This document shows, in pieces, positions 4,429 through 26,600 of a stretch of 31,962 nt of DNA. The first letter of the stretch is position 1. Every line of letters starts with the position of its first letter. The stretch spans positions 1 to 31,962 of IMG/VR virus record IMGVR_UViG_3300037847_001791; one strand, 5' to 3'. The notes below the pieces were generated by a model. It saw only the letters and a program-made list of their open reading frames with translations, did no database searches and was not told where the DNA came from. Source of the DNA: a virus. The translations under genes were made by a program, and so were the position numbers.

Positions 4429-5009
4429 AAGAAAGCCTTTCTTTTGTTAACTTCATTTTGGATTTGTTCATAAATTTTAGGATACTCTAAATTGAGTTTA
4501 TCCAGCTGGTCAGAAAAATATTCATCCCATTGCTCTAATTCATCTAAATCTTTTATACCTTTTACCTCTGCAATACGTTCATCCGCAAAATTTTGCCAAA
4601 ACGCTTTTTCATCTATTGTAACTTCTTTTTGCTGTGCCTGTTCGACTTCATTGATAGAAGCATACTGACCACCATGTAAACCAATACTTGCCAACGCTCT
4701 ACCAACAGCGCTTGTCTCGCAGTTTTCTACCGCAGATGTTTTGTTAACGTTTGACGATCCGCGTATTTCTTCAGCGTATCCAGATCCAATTATCATACCG
4801 TCTTTGTTTTTTATTACAGCTTTAGCTATAACGTTGTCACCATTGTATGATATAATTTCAGTTTCTATACCATAGTCCATACCGAAAGCTCTTCTAAAAG
4901 CTTCTACTCTAACGGAAACCATTGTATATTTTTTACCGCCACGCTGTTCTACACCTTCTGTTTGATTAAGGTTGTTAACGTCTTGCATGGCTTGTTCTAA
5001 GTTACTCAC
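4425..5009 (-). CDS. single-strand annealing (Rad52/Erf-like) recombination protein
   Basis: This 194-residue protein contains KTSAVENCETSAVGRALASIGL (about 90-111), followed by GGQYASINEVEQAQQ. That is the hallmark segment of a phage family assigned to ssDNA annealing or DNA repair proteins (Rad52/Erf-like). The N-terminal half is beta-rich (YTMVSVRVEAFRRAFG...). The start is GTG at 5009, overlapping the exonuclease stop as GTGA. Next to a PD-(D/E)XK exonuclease this would form a Red-like pair: the nuclease makes 3' tails and this protein anneals them. Family membership is from memory of the motif, so the subtype is uncertain. Confidence 0.7.
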   Translation of the reverse strand: MSNLEQAMQDVNNLNQTEGVEQRGGKKYTMVSVRVEAFRRAFGMDYGIETEIISYNGDNVIAKAVIKNKDGMIIGSGYAEEIRGSSNVNKTSAVENCETSAVGRALASIGLHGGQYASINEVEQAQQKEVTIDEKAFWQNFADERIAEVKGIKDLDELEQWDEYFSDQLDKLNLEYPKIYEQIQNEVNKRKAFL

Positions 5010-5989
5010 TTTGTAACACCTCCTAATTCTTTAGCCTGTTTTAATATTTCCGGGTTCATATCACGCCACACAAAACTATCGGCAAAGTGTGGATCGCACA
5101 GCTTTAACAGTTGTTGTACGTTTTCCGTCACCATCATTAGTTTTTCCCGGCGCTGACACGCTGCAATTACATCAGCAAGCGCGTATTCTAATTCATCTAT
5201 TGTTGGTTCAAACACAACGTAACCTAATCTGTTTGCGTACACGATACGCGGTATTTTGCCAGTAAGATGCCAATACCCGGCAATCTGTTTAAGATGCGGA
5301 TCTTTTATTTTCTTTGGTAAAGAGTTTGCGCGTGGCTTATCAGTATCAACGCTCGTATCCCATTGTGTTTTTAATTCTACTGCACCTTCCTGATAATCAC
5401 CAAAGCCTAGATAATCTAGTTCGCAACCGGGCAGTTTACCGCGCAGCATTGTTTGCCCTACGATTTCATTAGCACCGTGCATTGCTTCACGTAAACCAAG
5501 CTCCGCGTTTTTACATACAAGCTCAAATTCGTTTGTGCCTATCTCGTCTTTCTTTGCTGGCTTGCCTTGCTCGTTGTAACGTGGCAGCTGCCTTCCTTCC
5601 AGTTGACGTTGTACTTTATCTTGATCTATCCAAGAACCTGTTTGCAGTGACGTTAGCACGTTCAATGCTTCCCGGTATGCTTCACCTTGCATTGCACCAT
5701 CAACTAATATTTGATCGCAAAAATATTCTACAGCCCTACCGCTGCACATATTTACGTTGTCGTTAAACTGTGCTTTGTTGCGGTAATCTATGTAATATCC
5801 AAACTTTGCTAGTATCTCTTCAGCTTGTGCAATGTCACCTTCTGTCTTGCCATTGATAATATCAAGAGCAATGTTTCTTTCTGTCCGAAGTATTCCCTTG
5901 TCGAAAAACGTATAAAAATCAGGGGTACTTGGGTTACTATGGTGATAGTAGCCTTTGCTGTATGCCCATGAAAAGTTATTTCGTATCAT
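5006..5989 (-). CDS. PD-(D/E)XK exonuclease (Red-exo/RecE/Cas4-like)
   Basis: The 327-residue protein has the fold markers of PD-(D/E)XK phage exonucleases. There is an N-proximal helix with CSGRAVEYFCDQIL (about 82-95), then LPGCELDYLGFGDYQEGAVELKTQWD (about 189-214, with the Asp and E-x-K active-site set), then the QIAGYWHLTGK helix and a strand with IVYANRLGYVVFEP. These match lambda exonuclease or RecE-type enzymes that resect double-strand ends. It is the first gene of the leftward operon, with GAAAGAG as a weak ribosome site. It likely works with the annealing protein in recombination-dependent replication and end repair. Confidence 0.75.
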   Translation of the reverse strand: MIRNNFSWAYSKGYYHHSNPSTPDFYTFFDKGILRTERNIALDIINGKTEGDIAQAEEILAKFGYYIDYRNKAQFNDNVNMCSGRAVEYFCDQILVDGAMQGEAYREALNVLTSLQTGSWIDQDKVQRQLEGRQLPRYNEQGKPAKKDEIGTNEFELVCKNAELGLREAMHGANEIVGQTMLRGKLPGCELDYLGFGDYQEGAVELKTQWDTSVDTDKPRANSLPKKIKDPHLKQIAGYWHLTGKIPRIVYANRLGYVVFEPTIDELEYALADVIAACQRREKLMMVTENVQQLLKLCDPHFADSFVWRDMNPEILKQAKELGGVTK

Positions 5990-6003: not shown

Positions 6004-6032
6004 TTGACAGATTGTGTCTAACTTAGTATCAA
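6004..6032 (+). promoter_or_regulatory. early rightward promoter with embedded operator
   Basis: TTGACA (6004-6009) is a perfect -35, followed after 17 bases by TATCAA (6027-6032), a weak -10. The -35 lies in an imperfect dyad TGACAGATTGTGTCT (6005-6019), whose counterparts occur at two other early promoters. It is placed about 30 bases before the Cro-like gene and inside the divergent region shared with the leftward exonuclease operon, so a repressor bound here could affect both directions. AAGGAG plus an 8-T spacer sits before the ATG at 6061. Confidence 0.6.
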
Positions 6033-6060
6033 GGAAAATAAATTACAAGGAGTTTTTTTT

Positions 6061-6264
6061 ATGACGCTAGATGAATGGCGAAAATCGCAAGGCATGAGCT
6101 ACCCGGTTTTAGCAAAGAAACTAGGTGCAGCTGGTGCTACGGTTGCCCGGCGCTGGTGTTTGCCGAGTGACCACAAGGACAGAATGATACCGTCACCTAA
6201 ATTTATGCGTATTATACAAGATAGCACACACGGCGCAGTACAGCCAAACGATTTCTACAGGTAA
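6061..6264 (+). CDS. Cro-like HTH regulator
   Basis: The 67-residue protein is a compact helical domain: MTLDEWRKSQGMSYPVLAKKLG (about 1-22), then GAAGATVARRWCLP as the putative recognition helix region, and SPKFMRIIQDSTHGAVQPNDFY at the end. This layout is typical of Cro/CI-type single-domain repressors. It is the first gene to the right of the divergent promoter region, preceded by AAGGAG, and the dyad at 6005-6019 overlaps its own promoter's -35. Autoregulation and control of the two other dyad-containing promoters are inferred. No CI-like second domain or integrase is present, so lysogeny is not supported. Confidence 0.75.
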   Translation: MTLDEWRKSQGMSYPVLAKKLGAAGATVARRWCLPSDHKDRMIPSPKFMRIIQDSTHGAVQPNDFYR

Positions 6265-6268
6265 TGGC

Positions 6269-6601
6269 ATGGGTGGTAAGGCGGCGAGAGTTAAAGGTGC
6301 ATCGTTTGAACGCGAAATAGTGAATTGGCATAAAGAGCGTGGTGTAGATGCAGAGCGCATACCTTTATCGGGTGCAATGAAGGGAAACTATGCGAGTGAC
6401 ATAAAGCTAGGACCGCAACTTGCGTTAACAGCTGAGTGCAAGCGCAGAGCTAGAGCGTGGCAAGATTTATATGATGCGTTCGATCAGGATAACAGCGATA
6501 TGTTGTTTATCCGCAAAGATAGAAAGCCAACATTAGTTGTGCTTACAATGGAAACTTACGAAACTTATTTACAATGGTTTGATTGGATAAAGGAGAAATA
6601 A
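6269..6601 (+). CDS. Hjc-like Holliday junction resolvase / PD-(D/E)XK nuclease
   Basis: The 110-residue protein matches the archaeal-Hjc-like resolvase pattern. A basic N-terminus leads to KGASFEREIVNWHKERG (E14 first acidic residue), then PLSGAMKGNYASDIKLG (D44), and LTAECKRRA (E57-x-K59) as the catalytic E-x-K strand. A C-terminal helix follows. Such enzymes cut four-way junctions or branched DNA before packaging. It lies four bases after the regulator gene and is co-transcribed with winged-helix and zinc proteins. The motif order is clear; substrate preference is inferred from the family. Confidence 0.75.
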   Translation: MGGKAARVKGASFEREIVNWHKERGVDAERIPLSGAMKGNYASDIKLGPQLALTAECKRRARAWQDLYDAFDQDNSDMLFIRKDRKPTLVVLTMETYETYLQWFDWIKEK

Positions 6602-6602
6602 A

Positions 6603-6890
6603 ATGGGATACACTGAAACAGGCATAGGGTATCAGTCAACAGACACAAGCAAAGCAGCTGCAAACAGCAATTACAAAGGTAAACTTACAATACGTGACCG
6701 GGTGTATCAGCTGCTACAGAAAACATCTCAGGCGTTATCTACTGAGGACATTGCCGGGTTGTTAAACGTACCATACGGTTCTGTACAGCCGAGGTTGTCA
6801 GAACTACAGAATGAAGATAAAGTTGAGGACAGCGGAGAACGCGGTAAAACTCGCTGGGGTAAGGCTTGCATCAAATGGAGAGCAAAGTGA
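6603..6890 (+). CDS. winged-helix DNA-binding protein
   Basis: The 95-residue protein has a disordered N-terminus (about 1-28), then a winged helix: RDRVYQLLQKTSQALSTEDIAGLLNVPYGSVQPRLSELQNEDKV, with the recognition helix at SVQPRLSELQ. A wing follows with EDSGERGKTRWGK, ending in basic residues. AAGGAG lies 9 bases before the ATG. Similar small winged-helix proteins are common in phage early operons as transcription or replication helpers. No specific target can be named. The next gene starts inside its 3' end. Confidence 0.7.
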   Translation: MGYTETGIGYQSTDTSKAAANSNYKGKLTIRDRVYQLLQKTSQALSTEDIAGLLNVPYGSVQPRLSELQNEDKVEDSGERGKTRWGKACIKWRAK

Positions 6891-7114
6891 CTTACATAGT
6901 TGAAAAAGGCGATAGCGCTGTAGAAGTTACAGTGATTGACGGTTCTCGCAAGATTGAAATGCCAATGAAAAAATGCCCTTACTGTGATGGTGAGGGCGAT
7001 TACTTAGTTGAAGAGCCTGTAGTTGATTACGTGCATGGTGGTTACTTGCAAGAGAAACGCATTACTTGTGAAGAGTGTCACGGCAATCGCTTTGTGGTTA
7101 TTGACGATGAATAA
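6875..7114 (+). CDS. small zinc-binding protein (DnaJ-type CxxCxG halves)
   Basis: I use ATG 6875, inside the end of the previous gene; a TTG three codons earlier and a GTG at 6887 are alternatives. The product is 79 residues. It has a short strand-rich N-terminal part, then CPYCDGEG and, about 30 residues on, CEECHGNRF. The two CxxC pairs with following Gly fit one zinc site of a DnaJ-like cysteine-rich domain. The rest of DnaJ is absent. Such mini zinc proteins in phage early operons are of unknown function; protein-protein or nucleic-acid binding is plausible. Confidence 0.65.
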   Translation: MESKVTYIVEKGDSAVEVTVIDGSRKIEMPMKKCPYCDGEGDYLVEEPVVDYVHGGYLQEKRITCEECHGNRFVVIDDE

Positions 7115-7316
7115 ATGTAAATCGTGTGGTCGTGAGCATGACGTTAATCGTGGTGGCTGGATTATATTGGCTACCGGGGATTTGATTTGTGATCCAGCTG
7201 ATAAGCCAGAGTGTTGGGAAAAGCTTAGTGATTGGTACATCCAGAAGCGCGCACAGATGCAAGCTTTGCATGATAGAAATAGTGGGTTGACAAATGCGAA
7301 AACCGCTGTACGCTAA
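7107..7316 (+). CDS. small zinc-ribbon-like protein
   Basis: The ATG at 7107 overlaps the end of the previous gene by 8 bases; an in-frame upstream extension exists but lies wholly inside that gene. The 69-residue product has CKSCGREH near the start and two further cysteines (DLICDPAD and PECWEKL), which could bind one zinc ion. A helical, charged C-terminus follows. No specific family is recognised. Being next to another zinc-binding protein in an early operon suggests a paired regulatory or host-takeover function, but nothing proves it. Confidence 0.6.
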   Translation: MNKCKSCGREHDVNRGGWIILATGDLICDPADKPECWEKLSDWYIQKRAQMQALHDRNSGLTNAKTAVR

Positions 7317-7662
7317 CGCGAGCCGACCGAGGCGAGATAATAACTATAAAGTTAATAACAATATAGCAGTAACTATAAATAACTATAATAACAATATAGT
7401 TAATAACTATAAGCAAGACGTACTTAAACGAACACTTGTCAAGATGAACCCGGCATACAAGAAAGCTGGTGAGGAAGCGCGACAAGATCCGTTAGCATTT
7501 CGATTAAAAAAAGTTATGAAGTTATTGCGAACCCGGTTAGGAACGCAGAATTTTATTGAAGCAGTAAATCATGTAGCTACATTGTCACCAATGGAGCAAG
7601 CAAAGTTTTGTCAAAGCGTTGAGGATTACTATGCCGCTAGATGTATCGAACATGACAGTTGA
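7294..7662 (+). CDS. Asn-rich protein carrying an AT-rich repeat cluster; possible replication protein
   Basis: The 122-residue protein has a short basic start, then an Asn/Tyr/Ile/Val-rich low-complexity segment (about residues 15-40, NNY and NNNI repeated). A helical basic C-terminal domain follows (KQDVLKRTLVKMNPAYKK through FCQSVEDYYAARC). The low-complexity segment is encoded by iteron-like DNA repeats, as in lambda O, where the origin lies inside the initiator gene. The C-terminal domain matches no initiator family that I know, so the replication role is inference from DNA structure and position. It overlaps the genes on both sides. Confidence 0.6.
   Translation: MRKPLYANASRPRRDNNYKVNNNIAVTINNYNNNIVNNYKQDVLKRTLVKMNPAYKKAGEEARQDPLAFRLKKVMKLLRTRLGTQNFIEAVNHVATLSPMEQAKFCQSVEDYYAARCIEHDS
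7341..7412. repeat. AT-rich iteron-like repeats, candidate replication origin
   Basis: Four copies of AACTATAA start at 7342, 7371, 7381 and 7405. The 14-base TAATAACAATATAG occurs exactly twice (7353-7366 and 7386-7399), 33 bases apart. TATAGTTA-A-TAACTATA (7395-7411) is a perfect 17-base dyad. The region is almost free of G and C, unlike its neighbours. Short repeats plus a dyad plus AT-richness inside an early gene is the organisation of lambdoid origins. It may alternatively just encode the Asn-rich segment. Confidence 0.5.
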
Positions 7663-8041
7663 GGATTTTAACGAGTTGTTCATGGAAGCAGCGCAGACAG
7701 AGCGATCTTTGCCGGGAGTGTTTCGTAAACAGAAACTAGCCAGCTGGCCTGATTACGTGCAATCTTGGGCAAGCTATGGATGGTCTGATGTAGAACAGGT
7801 AAGGATACAGCCCACAGCTGCACAAGTTGATCGGCTAGATTTTGCGTTAGATTTGGGTTTACGTATGGATAAGGACGATAGGAAGCTGGTCTGGGCAGCT
7901 GCACATAGCGCTGTAGGAAGGGAACGCGGTCCACAATGGACTAAGCTGGGTAAAATGCTAGGACGCTCACGGAGAAACGTCAAGAATGAGTATATTGCTG
8001 CGCTGGTACGTTTAACTTGGATAATAAAAAAGCCGCACTGA
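7631..8041 (+). CDS. DUF6362-like HTH protein, possible late regulator
   Basis: I use ATG 7631; a TTG four codons upstream is in frame. The 136-residue product has an N-terminal helix pair, then SYGWSDVEQVRIQPTAAQVDRLDFALDLGLRMDKDDRKLVWAAAHSA. It ends in a helix-turn-helix-like part, WTKLGKMLGRSRRNVKNEYIAALVRLTW. This arrangement (aromatic-acidic start, RMD, D-R-LVWA, then a sigma-like HTH) is what I know as DUF6362, found in alphaproteobacterial phages and gene transfer agents. As the last gene of the rightward early operon it sits where lambdoid phages keep their late regulator. That function is inferred. Confidence 0.6.
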   Translation: MPLDVSNMTVEDFNELFMEAAQTERSLPGVFRKQKLASWPDYVQSWASYGWSDVEQVRIQPTAAQVDRLDFALDLGLRMDKDDRKLVWAAAHSAVGRERGPQWTKLGKMLGRSRRNVKNEYIAALVRLTWIIKKPH

Positions 8042-8056
8042 GAAGCTCAATGCGGC
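8032..8056 (-). terminator. intrinsic terminator of the leftward early operon, distal copy
   Basis: GCCGCA-C-TGAG, loop AAG, CTCA-A-TGCGGC forms a 10-pair stem with one mismatch. Leftward it is followed by a run of T (A run at 8025-8031 on the given strand). It overlaps the last codons of the rightward gene that ends at 8041, so its A tract also encodes that protein's Lys-Lys end. Confidence 0.75.
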
Positions 8057-8112
8057 AAATTGCAGTCCCACCCTCGCTTATCACACCAAACACTGCAATA
8101 AAACATTATGAA

Positions 8113-8233
8113 ATTATTGCAAAACACACAAGAAAAAAAGCCGCACTGAATGAACAGTACGGCTCTCGGTAGCACAAGCCCCTCACAAGTAAAACTACGT
8201 TACAGCATTATTGCAAAGCCCACAAGATAAAAA
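8113..8233. repeat. direct repeat: duplicated tail of the micro-protein gene
   Basis: Two near-identical copies, 8113-8139 and 8207-8233, start ATTATTGCAAA and continue as CACAAGA plus an A run. The right copy is the end of the micro-protein gene 8208-8303. The left copy is a decayed duplicate without an open frame. Each copy is followed leftward by a hairpin beginning GCCGCACTGA, so gene tail and terminator appear to have been duplicated together. Confidence 0.55.
8140..8163 (-). terminator. intrinsic terminator of the leftward early operon, proximal copy
   Basis: GCCG-C-ACTG pairs with CAGT-A-CGGC around AATGAA, with one internal mismatch. Leftward it is followed by seven T (A run at 8133-8139). 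The right-hand arm starts with the same GCCGCACTGA as the distal terminator. Two tandem terminators would insulate this operon from the converging rightward one. Confidence 0.7.
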
Positions 8234-8303
8234 ATAACATACACGGAGCAGCAAACACTGCTACTGCTCCGATAAAGTCACCGATAAGGTCAAGCCATTT
8301 CAT
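8208..8303 (-). CDS. 31-residue single-TM micro-protein
   Basis: ATG at 8303 is preceded by AGGAG with a 7-base spacer, a strong ribosome-binding site. The product starts MKWLDLIGDFIGAVAVFAAP and continues with a hydrophobic CMLFFILWALQ before TAA. Nearly the whole chain is one membrane-spanning helix. It lies 10 bases after the preceding gene of the leftward early operon and before the terminators. Small phage membrane peptides often modulate host membrane proteins; which one, if any, is unknown here. Its 3' end is duplicated at 8113-8139. Confidence 0.55.
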   Translation of the reverse strand: MKWLDLIGDFIGAVAVFAAPCMLFFILWALQ

Positions 8304-8313
8304 GTTGTTGCTC

Positions 8314-8664
8314 CTATCGTAAATATTCTGGGCCAGTCCATCTAACCCATGAAAAATCGCCATCAAGAACATTGCCACGCGCTTGATTTTTTGCCGGAGC
8401 AGACCAGCTTGCCGCTTTTAAGATGTCACCTTTTCTAAATTTTGGATCATCGTCAGAGTTAACAACAAAGCCCCATGCAGAGCCGCCGTTCATTTCTGTT
8501 ATCTTGATATACTTTTTACCAACTTTGTAACCAAGCTCTTCACCGTGTTTTACGATGCTAGCTTCAAGCCTTTCTGCGTCACCGCCAGCTTTAATCCAGC
8601 GTCTTTGCATTTTTGCATAATCATCTTTGATAGCTGTTAATAAATTCTCTAATTGCTGTTGCAT
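8314..8664 (-). CDS. conserved early phage protein, function unknown
   Basis: The 116-residue protein has an N-terminal helix (about 1-40, with KMQRRWIKAGGDAERLEASI). A beta-rich part follows: KKYIKITEMNGGSAWGFVV, then FRKGDILKAASWSAPAKNQARGNVLDG and a C-terminal WVRWTGPEYL. I recognise the second half (GG-S-x-WGFV, KGDILKAASW-APA-N-ARGN) from a conserved phage and plasmid protein family with no assigned function. GGAGGT lies 7 bases before the ATG. It is part of the small-gene early operon, whose members are often host-takeover proteins. Confidence 0.7.
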   Translation of the reverse strand: MQQQLENLLTAIKDDYAKMQRRWIKAGGDAERLEASIVKHGEELGYKVGKKYIKITEMNGGSAWGFVVNSDDDPKFRKGDILKAASWSAPAKNQARGNVLDGDFSWVRWTGPEYLR

Positions 8665-8667
8665 TTG

Positions 8668-8859
8668 TTACACCTCCGATTGATTTCTATCCCACATCAA
8701 CAACACATTGTTAACAGCTTTGGTTGCTTTGTTAGCCATTGCCGGGTTGCCGATAAGGTTGTTACTGATAAAGCTTTCTAAGTTAGCAGTGTTCTCGAAC
8801 TCGAACCTGTAAACGTCAAAGCCGTGTTGATTAACTATTTTAGTAATTTTGTAGTCCAT
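8668..8859 (-). CDS. small early protein, probably from a near-leaderless mRNA
   Basis: The 63-residue product (starting MDYKITKIVNQHGFDVYRFEF) has a beta-hairpin-like N-terminus and a helical second half (SNNLIGNPAMANKATKAVNNVLLMW). No family is recognised. A sigma70-like promoter lies so close upstream (-10 at 8868-8873) that its transcript would begin within about one to three bases of the ATG. Read-through from the upstream operon would supply only a weak AGG before the start. It lies 3 bases before the next gene. Confidence 0.6.
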   Translation of the reverse strand: MDYKITKIVNQHGFDVYRFEFENTANLESFISNNLIGNPAMANKATKAVNNVLLMWDRNQSEV

Positions 8860-8867
8860 CTACTACC

Positions 8868-8896
8868 TATATAAGAACTATGACAGTATATGTCAA
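8868..8896 (-). promoter_or_regulatory. leftward early promoter with embedded operator
   Basis: On the minus strand TTGACA (8896-8891) is separated by exactly 17 bases from TATATA (8873-8868), a near-consensus sigma70 promoter. The -35 lies inside the perfect dyad TGACA-GTATA-TGTCA (8881-8895), matching the dyads at 6005 and 10090. It would drive the genes from 8859 leftward independently of the main operon promoter near 10090. Confidence 0.7.
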
Positions 8897-9468
8897 GCAT
8901 ACCATGATTTATATTGTGGCTTGCCATCCCACAATGACGCGCTGCTAAAGCTAGTCATGCTTACGCAGTTAGAACTGTTAGCTTTTTTCTTAAACGGTTC
9001 GCCGTATTCGTGATCGGGCAATGGTATAACTTTGCAAGCCATGCCATGCGCTTCGTAGCTATCGTCAATGTTGGCGCTGCGTATGCCGATTAACTCGACC
9101 ATAGATTTACCGACTAATCTTTTAACTTTGTAGAAGTCAACGTTAGTCTGGTCGTAGCCCCAAGAGCAAACCATGATGTCACCAACTTTTAAGCTGTGCG
9201 GTTTTAATCGCTCTGCTTTCTCTTTTGCTTTTCGCTCCTGTGATAACCTGACGCTTTCGATCTGTTTGTCTATAAGCTTTTGTAACGCATCGTGACTTTT
9301 GAAACCATAATGCCAGATCGGTTTGCTTTGCTTGCCGATAAAACACATAGCAGCAACTTCGTGGGCTGGATTTTTGCCTTCGTAGTACGCATAGAACACT
9401 ACAGGCAAATCTTTTGCTGCAATCTTAGTTGCGCCTTTTGGAATGTAGAACTCTCTTGATAATGCCAT
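8893..9468 (-). CDS. conserved phage/plasmid protein of unknown function
   Basis: The 191-residue protein starts MALSREFYIPKGATKI and contains AYYEGK, then a helical linker rich in K/E/R (about 70-95). The strongly conserved block HSLKVGDIMVCSWGYDQTNV-DFY (about 96-118) follows, and it ends SASLWDGKPQYKSWYA. I recognise this whole pattern from a widespread family in phages and plasmids of Proteobacteria with no known function. AGGAGG precedes the ATG. In the early leftward operon it may be a host-interaction or anti-defence protein, but that is only positional inference. Confidence 0.75.
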   Translation of the reverse strand: MALSREFYIPKGATKIAAKDLPVVFYAYYEGKNPAHEVAAMCFIGKQSKPIWHYGFKSHDALQKLIDKQIESVRLSQERKAKEKAERLKPHSLKVGDIMVCSWGYDQTNVDFYKVKRLVGKSMVELIGIRSANIDDSYEAHGMACKVIPLPDHEYGEPFKKKANSSNCVSMTSFSSASLWDGKPQYKSWYA

Positions 9469-9484
9469 ATTATTTACCTCCTAA

Positions 9485-9748
9485 TTAATCGTCAATTTGT
9501 TCGTTTGTTACGTCTACCCAATAATCAAGCTGTTCGTAGACCGCATCTCGCTCAACAACTGTCGGTACAAATGGAACGTTTGCAAAAGTTCTACACGTAA
9601 GAACTTTGCCCCAAGCATCGCTTTCCTCTGAGCTAGCGGTTCTTTTTTTGAACACTCGACCGCACTCAGTAATTGCAAACACAGCTGTTTGAGTACCTTC
9701 GAAATTGTTACTTATATTTAAGTATTGGATTTCTTTGATGTGATACAC
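9485..9748 (-). CDS. small early protein, GTG start
   Basis: The frame starts with GTG at 9748, with AGGAGG 9 bases upstream, and ends just before the next gene's ribosome site. The 87-residue product is mixed: a strand-rich part (TAVFAITECGRVFKKR), a central SSEESDAWGKVLTCRTF, and an acidic C-terminus ending NEQIDD. Net charge is negative. No family is recognised. It is second in the six-gene leftward early operon. Confidence 0.6.
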   Translation of the reverse strand: MYHIKEIQYLNISNNFEGTQTAVFAITECGRVFKKRTASSEESDAWGKVLTCRTFANVPFVPTVVERDAVYEQLDYWVDVTNEQIDD

Positions 9749-9764
9749 AGTTACTTACCTCCTT

Positions 9765-10022
9765 TTAAGCCTCACAGATCCACAACAAACCGGGATTTTG
9801 CCACTCACACATCAATCCGTTGTCATTCAATATTTTGTTGATTTTACCATTTACTCCACAATCCCAACCATCGTGGTTCCAATGGTAACAATCATAGTAA
9901 TCAGCCCATATCTCATCATCAGTGTTGTCCTCACCGCTGATCCACATGCCATCCTCGTTGACATGAACAGGCGCGCCAATCTTTTGTAAAGCAGTAAAAG
10001 CTTTTCTGTAATTCCTTTTCAT
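9765..10022 (-). CDS. conserved small early phage protein
   Basis: The 85-residue acidic protein begins MKRNYRKAFTALQKIGAPV. It contains WISGEDNTDDEIWADYYDCYHWNHDGWDCG and ends with LMCEWQNPGLLWICEA, and is unusually rich in Trp, Asp and Asn. The pattern K-IG-PV-----G-W-ISGE----EIWADYYD resembles a short phage protein family of unknown function. GAGGT lies 6 bases before the ATG. It is the first gene of the leftward early operon, about 55 bases from the operator-bearing promoter. Acidic early phage proteins often mimic DNA, but there is no direct evidence for that here. Confidence 0.65.
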   Translation of the reverse strand: MKRNYRKAFTALQKIGAPVHVNEDGMWISGEDNTDDEIWADYYDCYHWNHDGWDCGVNGKINKILNDNGLMCEWQNPGLLWICEA

Positions 10023-10076
10023 TGTTACCTCATTATTGTTTGGAATTGCGTGGGAGAAATCTCAACCACATCTATA

Positions 10077-10105
10077 CATCTAAACTATGTGACAGATACT
10101 GTCAA
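10077..10105 (-). promoter_or_regulatory. main leftward early promoter with embedded operator
   Basis: On the minus strand TTGACA (10105-10100) is followed after 17 bases by TAGATG (10082-10077), a weak -10. The -35 lies in a perfect 15-base dyad TGACAG-ATA-CTGTCA (10090-10104). The start point would lie about 50 bases before the ATG at 10022. The dyad shares its half-sites with those at 6005 and 8881. Confidence 0.65.
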
Positions 10106-10133
10106 GGGGTATACAGAAAAAAAATATATTTAT

Positions 10134-10258
10134 TGCCGAATGTACTGAAATACGCTATATGTATGCTACAATCGCAAGATGTTGTGTTTAGCCTCAAGCC
10201 ACAACAATGCCTGTTACTTGCTGTTGTTAACTAGCCCGGTTATGCCGGGCATTTTTTT
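10134..10258 (+). ncRNA. short terminated leader RNA before the late operon
   Basis: Two overlapping promoter-like sequences lie here: TTGCCG-N17-TATATG (10133-10161) and an extended TGC-TACAAT -10 (10164-10172). A transcript from about 10168 or 10180 would contain a 7-pair hairpin, TGTTGTG / CACAACA (10180-10186 and 10200-10206, 13-base loop). It would stop at the strong terminator ending at 10258, giving a product of roughly 80-90 bases. No frame of useful length fits. This layout resembles the 6S leader of lambda PR', the target of Q antitermination. Confidence 0.5.
10234..10258 (+). terminator. intrinsic terminator just before terminase genes
   Basis: GCCCGG (10234-10239) pairs with CCGGGC (10245-10250) around a 5-base loop and is followed by A and seven T. 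It is the strongest rightward terminator seen in the window. It lies 12 bases before the TerS start, so late transcription from upstream must pass it. Confidence 0.85.
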
Positions 10259-10269
10259 AGGAAGCTGTA

Positions 10270-10716
10270 ATGCCAAGTAGAACTGTTACGATTAAAGTAA
10301 TGCAGAAGATATGCGATAGGTTAGCCGAAGGTGAGACGCTTGTAGATATTACTAAAGACAAAGCTATGCCTAACTATCGTAGCGTTACACGCGCTGTACA
10401 GGCCGATGAAGAGATATGGGAAATGTATCGCAAAGCAAGGATACTTCAAAGCGAATGGTACTCGGACCATATCAACAGGTTAGCTATGGAAGAACTGCCG
10501 GACGTTGCAGATCCACGTATGATTAACGCAGAAGTACAACGGCGTAGGTTAGAGATTGATACGCTAAAATGGACAGCTGCACGTAACCAGCCATTTGGCA
10601 TCAGAGACAAGAAAGAAGATCAACCAAGTAGTTCAGCAATCACGATCAGTTGGGCTGGCGGTGACGTTGCTGTTAGCGCAAAGGAAGAGGACGAGGAGGT
10701 TGTTGTTAGGCACTGA
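10270..10716 (+). CDS. terminase small subunit (Sf6 gp1-like family)
   Basis: The 148-residue protein starts with a DNA-binding helical part: KVMQKICDRLAEGETLVDITKDKAMPNYRSVTRAV (about 9-43), a HTH pattern typical of TerS. A helical oligomerisation region follows (YRKARILQSEWYSDHINRLAMEE). The family-typical segment MINAEVQRRRLEIDTLKWTAAR (about 84-105) comes next, then a disordered acidic tail. TerS recognises the packaging site and feeds DNA to TerL. It is preceded by AGGAAGCTGTA and sits one small gene upstream of TerL, separated by a 284-base non-coding interval. Confidence 0.85.
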   Translation: MPSRTVTIKVMQKICDRLAEGETLVDITKDKAMPNYRSVTRAVQADEEIWEMYRKARILQSEWYSDHINRLAMEELPDVADPRMINAEVQRRRLEIDTLKWTAARNQPFGIRDKKEDQPSSSAITISWAGGDVAVSAKEEDEEVVVRH

Positions 10717-23619: not shown

Positions 23620-26600
23620 TGTCCAGTTATTTACCAGATGGCGTTAATGCTTCAGCTTTTGCTTTTGTAAAAAGAACAAACAAACCGCAAGGAACGTTGT
23701 TAGAAAACTTTACTAAATCGTTTGACGCTGGTCTTATGCAAAGTGGTTCGTCTAAAGAACGTTTTATTAAAGAAGCGTGGGAGCCTATTGTTGAAGAAAT
23801 TAAAGATATTACTGGTAAATCTTTTGATAATCCCGGTTCGTATTTGCGTCCTAATATTTTAGAAATAGGTCAAGGCTATCCATTAATAAATCAAAAGTCT
23901 TTTTATGATCGTTATGTAAAAGATGTAGAAAGCTATGTGCGTGATAATCGTGATAAGTTACCAGACGAGTTAGTTGTTTCTGTTTTAGATCCTGATAGAG
24001 ATAATTCATGGGCTGAAGCAGCAAGAGAAAAATTTAAAGAAGAAACCGCAGAACTTGCAGAAATAACAGAAAGATCCCCCGGTGTTGCGCCTACGGTATC
24101 ACGATTTTTAGGTGGTTTAGCAGCTGGTGCAGAAGATCCGATTAACCAATTAAGTATGGCTATTCCGGCATTGCGATTAAAAAATACTTTTTCTGGGATT
24201 GTAATTGGTGAAGCTTTTACAAACGCAACAGTAGAAGCTATCCAGCAACCAGCCGTAAAAGAATGGTATGACAGTCTTGGATTAGATTACGATTGGAAAG
24301 ATTTTATAACTAACGTTGGTAGTGCCGCTGTTATTGGTGGTGCTTTTCCAGTAGTTATAAAAGTTGGTGGTGAAACAGTAAAACTCACGATGAAGCAAGC
24401 GCAAAAAGGTGTTGAGGTTTTAACAAGAGCGTCACCAAAAAAAACGGACATTCAAGAAGCTGCGGAAATATTAGAGGAAGTTGCAACCTCTTCAGCGGAA
24501 AGTAATCCGTTTGTAAAAACACCATTAGGGCAAGCGGAACATCAAGCAAGATTAAACAAAGCTACTGTTGCTATAAGTGATGGTAAAATGCCAAATTTAT
24601 CAGACGCTACTCAATCGCAAATTGAAGTGCCGGATAATTTAAACGAAGCAACAAACCTACAAATATTTGAAGAGTTCGATCCATTCGAAATTGGAGTTGA
24701 TGCGAAAACGTTTCAATTTAAAGAGGGTGGTGATGAATTTGGCGTTCTTTCGGGCAAGGATAGTTTACAAGATGTAACCGAATGGAACCCTATGATGGCG
24801 CAAACTATTATGGTTTACGAGTACGCCGATGGGCGTCTGTTCATTGCAGATGGTCATCAAAGATTGGGTTTAGCAAAGCGTATAATGACAAACGACCCAT
24901 CACAAAAAATACGGATGTTAGGGTACAGAATACGTGAAGTAGATGGAATTACGCCAGATGATGCAGTTGTTGCTGGTGCGTTAGTTAACATTGCTATGAA
25001 ATCAGGTAATGTTGTAGATGCAGCAAAAATTTTGAGAATTGCGCCTGATAAAGTTGGTGCTTTGCCGCCTAGATCAACATTTGTAAAACAAGCAAAAGAG
25101 TTATCTGTGCTGTCTAATGATGCGTGGGGCATGGTTAAAAATGAAATAATTGCACCAAACTACGCAGCTATTGTTGGTCGTTTAATGCCAAATAATGAAA
25201 CTATGCAAAAAGCAGCGCTCGATGTTTTGGTCAAAACGGAACCGTCAAATGAGTTTCAAGCGGAAGCAATAGTGCGTCAAGTACGCGAAACAGACGTTGT
25301 TACTGAAACGCAAGAAAATTTATTTGGTGAGGAAGTATTAACGCAAAGCTTGTTTGCGGAACGCGCAAAAGTGTTGGACCGGGCGCAAAAACAATTACGC
25401 AAAGATAAAAACGCATTTCAAAATTTAATTAAAAATGCCGATAGATTAGAAGATGAAGGAAACCAATTAGCTAAATCAGCTAACGAAAGAAGGGCAACAA
25501 ACGATGGCAAAGCAATCTCGCTCCTCCAAAGCCAAGCGAACCGCAAAGGCACCCTCTCAGATGCGCTCACAGGCGCAGCGCGGCAAGCAAAAGAAACAGG
25601 AAACTACAACGCCGCTACAGCGCGCTTTGTCGAAGATGTCAGACGAGCGATTTCAGATGGTGAGTTTGATCGCGCAGAGGTTAGCGATGCTGGACGCTAT
25701 TTCGACACTCCAGAAGAAATCCCTACTGTACGATCAAATGCGGAAACAGAAGAGCTAGATGCTTTTGGTGAAATGTTTGGCACAGGTCAAGCTGAACAAT
25801 TAAGTGGTTTAGACAACGATGTAATGGGCGCAATAAATACTAAAGATAATTTGAAAGAAAAATCTAAAACGCCGATTGCAATTCCAGAGCAACAAATAAT
25901 TCGTTTAAATGATTTAGATTTTCCCGAAGCTAAAGCGTTAGAAATTCAATTAAAAAATGAACAAGCTTTTGTTAATATTGATGAAATTGTTTCTAGAGCA
26001 AACGTAAATCATGGTTTACTGACACAAGCAATTGCAGACGCAAGTACAAAATCTGGTGCAAAACAAAAAAAAGCAAAAGTAAAAACACGTCAACGTATTG
26101 AAGAAAAAATTAATGATAAATACAACGGCGATTTAGATAGTATTACAGATGCAGCGCGTGGCGGTATTACAGCTGATACAAATGAAATAGCAGAAGAGTT
26201 TATAGAAGAGCTATCAAAAAGATTTAAATTAGTTGATGAAGGATACAAGTTTACGAACGAAGGATATTTTGATCGCAAGCTGATGGTTATATTTGATGAT
26301 AACCAAATTGGTGAAGTGCAGATATGGGCACCCGGTATGCTTGAAGCAAAACAGGCAAAAGGCACTGCATTATACAACATTTCTAGAAGTAGAAAAACAA
26401 AACCAGAAGATAGGGATAAAGCTGTAAATGATATGCTTGAATTGTACGGTCAAGTAAAAAGTAAATTATCAAAAAGTTGGGTAACTATACTAGATAATCA
26501 AACGTCAGACGGCATATCTGCGCCAAGTCTAGCGGTTAGAGAAGATACCATTTCGCGTGTAACCTCTGGAGAACGCTCGTCCGACAGTATACGATCAGCT

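Follow-up and report, generated by a model that had tools for sequence, protein, structure and literature searches.

Cro repressors and their operators are textbook elements of phage regulation. Phage lambda provides the reference case, with Cro and its OR and OL operators, and the contribution of Cro to lytic growth has been difficult to disentangle from its contribution to the choice of lysogeny. Other small regulators come closer in structure to the protein considered here. YdaS of prophage CP-933P (PDB 8co2) and P22 c2 (3jxb) display a full-length five-helix XRE fold like that predicted for our protein but have different operator letters, and both act beside partner repressor or toxin-antitoxin genes (for YdaS, PMC8630535). 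By sequence, homologues with 35-39% identity (tblastn) occur in cultured pelagiphages, namely HTVC010P gp53 and its relatives, where the gene likewise diverges from a nuclease gene; they carry another recognition helix, and the operator described below was sought and found absent from these phages, whose cro homologues are preceded by other sequences. Alphaproteobacterial CI/cro pairs (for example L122, L123 and L125) encode homologues with 30-45% identity and a common PNDFY tail opposite a CI-type HTH gene; they differ from our locus by the presence of CI and by other upstream repeats, such as CACCA/TGGTG in L134 and L135.

The early region presented here shares with lambda the divergent layout, a predicted small single-domain HTH repressor as first gene of the rightward early operon, an operator in the promoter of that gene and further operators at leftward early promoters. 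Unlike lambda, it has neither CI nor integrase (PF00589 is absent), and it carries one dyad per promoter, fused to the -35 box, where lambda has three. The all-helical fold predicted for the protein is nearer to P22 Cro and c2 than to the mixed fold of lambda Cro. Its terminase DNA, 67-71% identical over 160-240 bp, relates it to HTVC010P-type pelagiphages, and nuclease, cro and the leftward block are arranged much as in these phages as far as the early region was compared. Our literature search, which covered part of the journals, returned no description of this operator or of a Cro-only regulon in these phages.

Three operator-like sites in one early region

The window, meaning the whole stretch of 31,962 nucleotides analysed, makes up almost the whole of a virus record of 33,996 bases. 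Its early region contains the following features.

5006..5989, minus strand: nuclease-like gene read away from cro, with 15 bp between it and operator 1
6004..6020, plus strand: putative operator 1, TTGACAGATTGTGTCTA, left half forming the -35 of the rightward early promoter
6027..6032, plus strand: -10-like hexamer TATCAA, 17 bp spacer from TTGACA
6061..6264, plus strand: gene of the predicted Cro-type repressor, 67 aa, first gene of the rightward early operon
8314..8859, minus strand: leftward genes behind operator 2, two genes (8668-8859 and 8314-8664)
8868..8873, minus strand: -10-like hexamer TATATA, 17 bp spacer from TTGACA
8880..8896, minus strand: putative operator 2, leftward reading TTGACATATACTGTCAT, supplying the -35 for a leftward operon
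8893..10022, minus strand: leftward genes behind operator 3 (9765-10022, 9485-9748 and 8893-9468)
10077..10082, minus strand: -10-like hexamer TAGATG, 17 bp spacer; TATATG in close relatives
10089..10105, minus strand: putative operator 3, leftward reading TTGACAGTATCTGTCAC, supplying the -35 for a leftward operon, before terS

A preceding sequence-only reading had proposed that three early promoters share one dyad, and inspection bears out both the positions of the sites, which begin with TTGACAGATTGTGTCT at 6004 (plus), TTGACATATACTGTCA at 8896 (minus) and TTGACAGTATCTGTCA at 10105 (minus), and the -10-like hexamer 17 bp further on. The 5-base arms are perfectly palindromic at sites 2 and 3, and site 1 has one mismatched end (TGTCT). 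Sites 1 and 3 are intergenic, and site 2 runs into the stop codon of the gene before it (8893-9468). The nuclease gene, named from its position and from annotated homologues in cultured pelagiphages, opens an additional leftward operon (5989 downwards) 15 bp from site 1, which that reading had left unmentioned.

A scan of the whole window found the exact core TGACA-N5-TGTC only at 6005, 8881 and 10090, as had been claimed. Counting both readings of palindromes, this amounts to 5 occurrences against 0.17 expected, a number reached by none of 300 order-1 Markov sequences. The restriction to the three sites holds for this exact core; once one mismatch is allowed, the 10 occurrences against 5.84 expected are not special. 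Related dyads do occur in coding regions: the shorter TGAC-N7-GTCA has one further copy at about 19665, and a 9/10 match to TTGAC-N7-GTCAA lies at 26437. A free count of near-palindromes in the window was uninformative, being dominated by A-runs and GCAGC. A scan of the window for consensus sigma-70 promoters showed no excess and did not list the three sites, because it requires a T in the final position of the -10 hexamer. Taken by itself, the window makes a moderate case for operators.

Two features of the surrounding transcripts may be mentioned here. Only 35-37 nt separate the start of operator 2 from the ATG (8859-8896), without a clear ribosome site, and the same holds for cro in many CI-bearing relatives (L036, L039, L058, L066, L073 and L076); these mRNAs may therefore be leaderless. 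The CI-less relatives mostly have 54-58 nt between operator start and ATG, with a ribosome site. Three hairpins listed as leftward terminators, two of them followed by clear T runs, lie at 8032-8271, where the early operons of the two strands run into each other.

Conservation of operator and promoter

Among pattern-matched IMG/VR stretches, 218 relatives of the 67-residue protein were found, of which 80 were kept; these form 27 clusters at 85% identity, the window included. In all 27 clusters, a match of at least 8/10 to TTGAC-N7-GTCAA lies within 150 bp upstream of cro (9 or 10 in 24 of them), against a background in random stretches of the same contigs of 7.4% for at least 8 and 2.0% for at least 9. 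An alignment of the cro leaders from 11 loci shows no variation in the TTGAC and TGTC columns. With one locus taken per cluster, TGAC-N7-GTCA occurs 31 times outside the cro leader, compared to at most 13 times for 23 other half-sites of the same composition, and TTGAC-N7-GTCAA occurs 11 times compared to at most 3. In 46% of 48 operators from the window and its relatives (28 before cro, 20 leftward), the dinucleotide TA follows the first hexamer at a distance of exactly 17 bp, against 0-25% at the other spacings tried, so that the overlap of operator and -35 box, proposed from the window, holds for the family. In many relatives, mostly CI-bearing, the first operator is preceded at 39-41 bp by another one.

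Site 3 is the most conserved of the three copies. Its 18-mer matched 22 viral-contig stretches, 21 of which are relatives with the site just before terS. The neighbourhood was examined at 20 loci, where window-type terminase genes were found in 19 and no match to a window protein in one (L108); the remaining two matches come from contigs already included among the relatives, in which the site lies at -181 and -191. The content of the leftward genes behind this site varies among relatives. An operator near terS is also present in the CI-bearing L038, L042, L049-L051, L059, L067, L070 and L072 and is missing from L012, L018, L020, L022, L024, L025, L027, L034, L079-L081 and some others. Several sister clades, L012, L020, L025 and L079-L081 among them, lack sites 2 and 3. 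This patchy presence near terS indicates that the size of the regulon varies. The idea of one repressor for all early operons thus stands for the three sites of the window and has to be narrowed elsewhere, given these sister clades and the tentative promoter of the nuclease operon. Overall, the comparison of upstream sequences in the relatives turns a plausible motif into what appears to be a well-supported regulon.

The Cro-like protein

An AlphaFold2 model built from 43 aligned sequences predicts five helices with a mean pLDDT of 96.9. The solved structures closest over the full length are XRE proteins, namely YdaS (Z 8.5, 26% identity), P22 c2 (Z 8.1) and CylR2, and P22 Cro and N15 Cro are also among the Foldseek matches; all fold matches have weak E-values, as is usual for a helical protein of 67 residues. 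The protein is accordingly predicted to be a five-helix repressor of the Cro/P22 type. Pfam and PHROGs gave no significant match for the window protein, Pfam HTH_3 appears in its relatives below threshold only, and an Rfam scan of the window gave no match.

A dyad of at least 9/10 precedes 25 of 28 genes whose product carries a helix of the ATVARRWC type and none of 22 without it (p about 5e-11, kinship uncorrected); the homologues lacking both helix and dyad are those of cultured pelagiphages and bacterial loci. The operator letters are thus tied to the helix letters, which argues for direct binding. From this covariation we infer that the 67-residue protein binds the dyad, and the earlier proposal of a shared operator read by the Cro-like protein gains support from the upstream sequences, the dyad following the gene in 27 clusters and disappearing where the recognition helix differs.

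What is usually called a Cro combines several traits. The window protein appears as a small, near-bare HTH of XRE fold with a symmetric operator in its own promoter, and the same operator stands at other early promoters (8896 and 10105, and in relatives, though not all). A divergent CI gene sharing these operators is missing from the window, where the nuclease gene occupies the place of CI. We therefore speak of an orphan Cro, a protein that would work like a Cro, rather than of a full switch.

CI, nuclease and integrase

In bacterial genomes, the homologue of the 67-residue protein generally faces a CI-type gene. By eye, 15 of the 16 divergent genes extracted from bacterial loci look like HTH proteins, and those that were scanned contain a significant HTH_3 (6/6) and a peptidase S24 domain (5/6). 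Many marine relatives similarly carry a CI-like gene of roughly 210-260 aa between nuclease and cro; the CI-like protein of L066 contains HTH_26 and HTH_3 above cut-off. In these marine CI-bearing relatives, an extra operator is often found before the nuclease. The window has no CI-like gene left of cro, and a search for CI remnants there in the window, L035, L044, L047, L079 and L121 revealed none that was convincing.

CI and integrase occur together. Among loci whose left flank exceeds 5.9 kb (13 CI clusters, 6 CI-less clusters), integrase was found in 15 of 15 with CI and in 0 of 15 without (Fisher test on clusters, 4e-5). PF00589 is present in nine CI-bearing records, absent from eight CI-less viral records, and gave no match in the possibly incomplete 33,996-base record of the window. 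The phage of the window thus lacks the pair, integrase and CI, that would mark it as temperate. An operator-like site of at least 8/10 lies near the integrase start in 15 of 19 cases, scoring at least 9 in 10 of these.

The absence of CI and integrase is taken to reflect loss. To account for a tree of the nuclease, CI must have changed state four times or more on branches with good support, but parsimony on this tree, with a pelagiphage outgroup devoid of CI, cannot tell gain from loss. What looks like the clearest loss concerns L079-L081, which are nested among CI-bearing phages: their nuclease begins at -90, where the CI of their sisters begins at -89, and both operators are kept. For the clade of the window, loss of CI appears the likelier event than gain. 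L079, L080 and L081 on one side and L054, L064 and L067 on the other would be a good pairing for the study of lysogeny loss. L121 (PAOW01000004.1), binned as a Euryarchaeota MAG, contains this cro, a 10/10 operator, the nuclease and the terminase and is probably a mis-binned phage.

A model for early shut-off

The arrangement is probably that of a Cro-type repressor acting on three dyads, the Cro half of a CI/Cro switch of which CI and integrase are missing. With these two gone, only the shut-off of early genes in lytic growth would remain. Sites, positions, conservation, gene order and joint absence are read directly from the DNA; dimer binding, repression and timing are deduced from them as follows. 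Early in infection, host polymerase would use the three promoters. A Cro dimer would then bind the dyad TTGAC-N7-GTCAA and, since the dyad is built into the -35 box, would bar RNA polymerase. At site 1, cro would be autoregulated and the rightward early operon turned down; at sites 2 and 3, the two leftward accessory operons would be turned down once enough Cro has accumulated. Site 1 may also obstruct the divergent nuclease operon. The promoter of this operon is uncertain in the window; a -10-like TACTAA would put its start at site 1, in which case one operator might close both operons.

Alternative explanations

That the -35 boxes merely happen to precede TGTC is barely credible. Half of the motif is indeed the consensus -35, and the one-mismatch pattern is not over-represented in the window alone; the second half-site is nevertheless kept across relatives, at separate promoters and within a promoter spacer on which no consensus makes demands, and chance was rejected on this conservation. 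It is also quite improbable that another protein, be it a host regulator, the winged-helix-like product of 6603-6890 or the DUF6362 protein, reads the dyads with the Cro-like protein as a bystander. Further HTH-like proteins are encoded in the same operon, but the dyad stands directly before cro in 27 clusters and is lost where the recognition helix differs, and both the bacterial loci and many marine relatives place the gene as cro opposite CI.

Two other explanations accept the operators and dispute their history. Cro and its sites could be a decaying relic, free of selection in a phage that is losing the whole switch: CI and integrase have disappeared, some CI-less relatives are without sites 2 and 3, and site 1 is imperfect. 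We consider this improbable as well, because all CI-less clusters possess an intact cro with a good operator before it, and site 3 shows no change over 18 bases in relatives that have exchanged the genes next to it. Alternatively, the marine CI-less form would be ancestral, the temperate lineages having gained CI and integrase, and a Cro-only shut-off would be primitive. The cultured pelagiphages, which form the outgroup and have nuclease and cro without CI, speak for this history; the distant bacterial homologues paired with CI, and the apparently clean loss of CI in L079-L081, speak against it and make it unlikely, if still worth some weight. The best reading remains that of an orphan Cro retained with its operators for the shut-off of early transcription in a virulent phage.

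The region before the late genes

Between operator 3 and terS (10118-10270), a conserved rightward promoter-like block (TTGC-CGAATGTACTGAAATA ... TACAATCG) is followed by a leader ending in an intrinsic terminator (10234-10250) and a T run, directly before the ribosome site of terS. By eye, several relatives have different stems in this leader. By analogy with lambda PR'-tR', the arrangement suggests antitermination of the late genes. The last gene of the rightward early operon (7631-8041; DUF6362, phrog_6836) sits in the place of Q in lambda. The model of its product has a pLDDT of 81, and its best fold matches are mostly sigma factors, though every E-value is weak; the protein is a candidate late-gene regulator. 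No paper mentioning DUF6362 was found in our literature search.

Implications for phage biology

Lineages that have neither CI nor integrase and still keep Cro and its operators constitute a natural experiment, in which the role of Cro in early shut-off becomes directly testable in a widespread marine phage type whose regulation is barely known. In genomes of this kind, the operator consensus can guide the annotation of early promoters. Shut-off as such seems to benefit a marine virus that purely kills its bacteria. We would give about even chances to a broader scenario, in which marine podoviruses repeatedly turned from temperate to virulent through the joint loss of CI and integrase, with Cro and the operators retained and the latter still marking swappable cassettes of early genes. 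If this is true, regulation would have settled in a stable end state, Cro-only shut-off, that serves lytic growth in its own right, independently of the choice between lysis and lysogeny. One ocean survey counted Cro among its prophage markers (PMC5705922). Our observations warn against this use of Cro and, should the scenario hold, its presence would not mark a phage as temperate.
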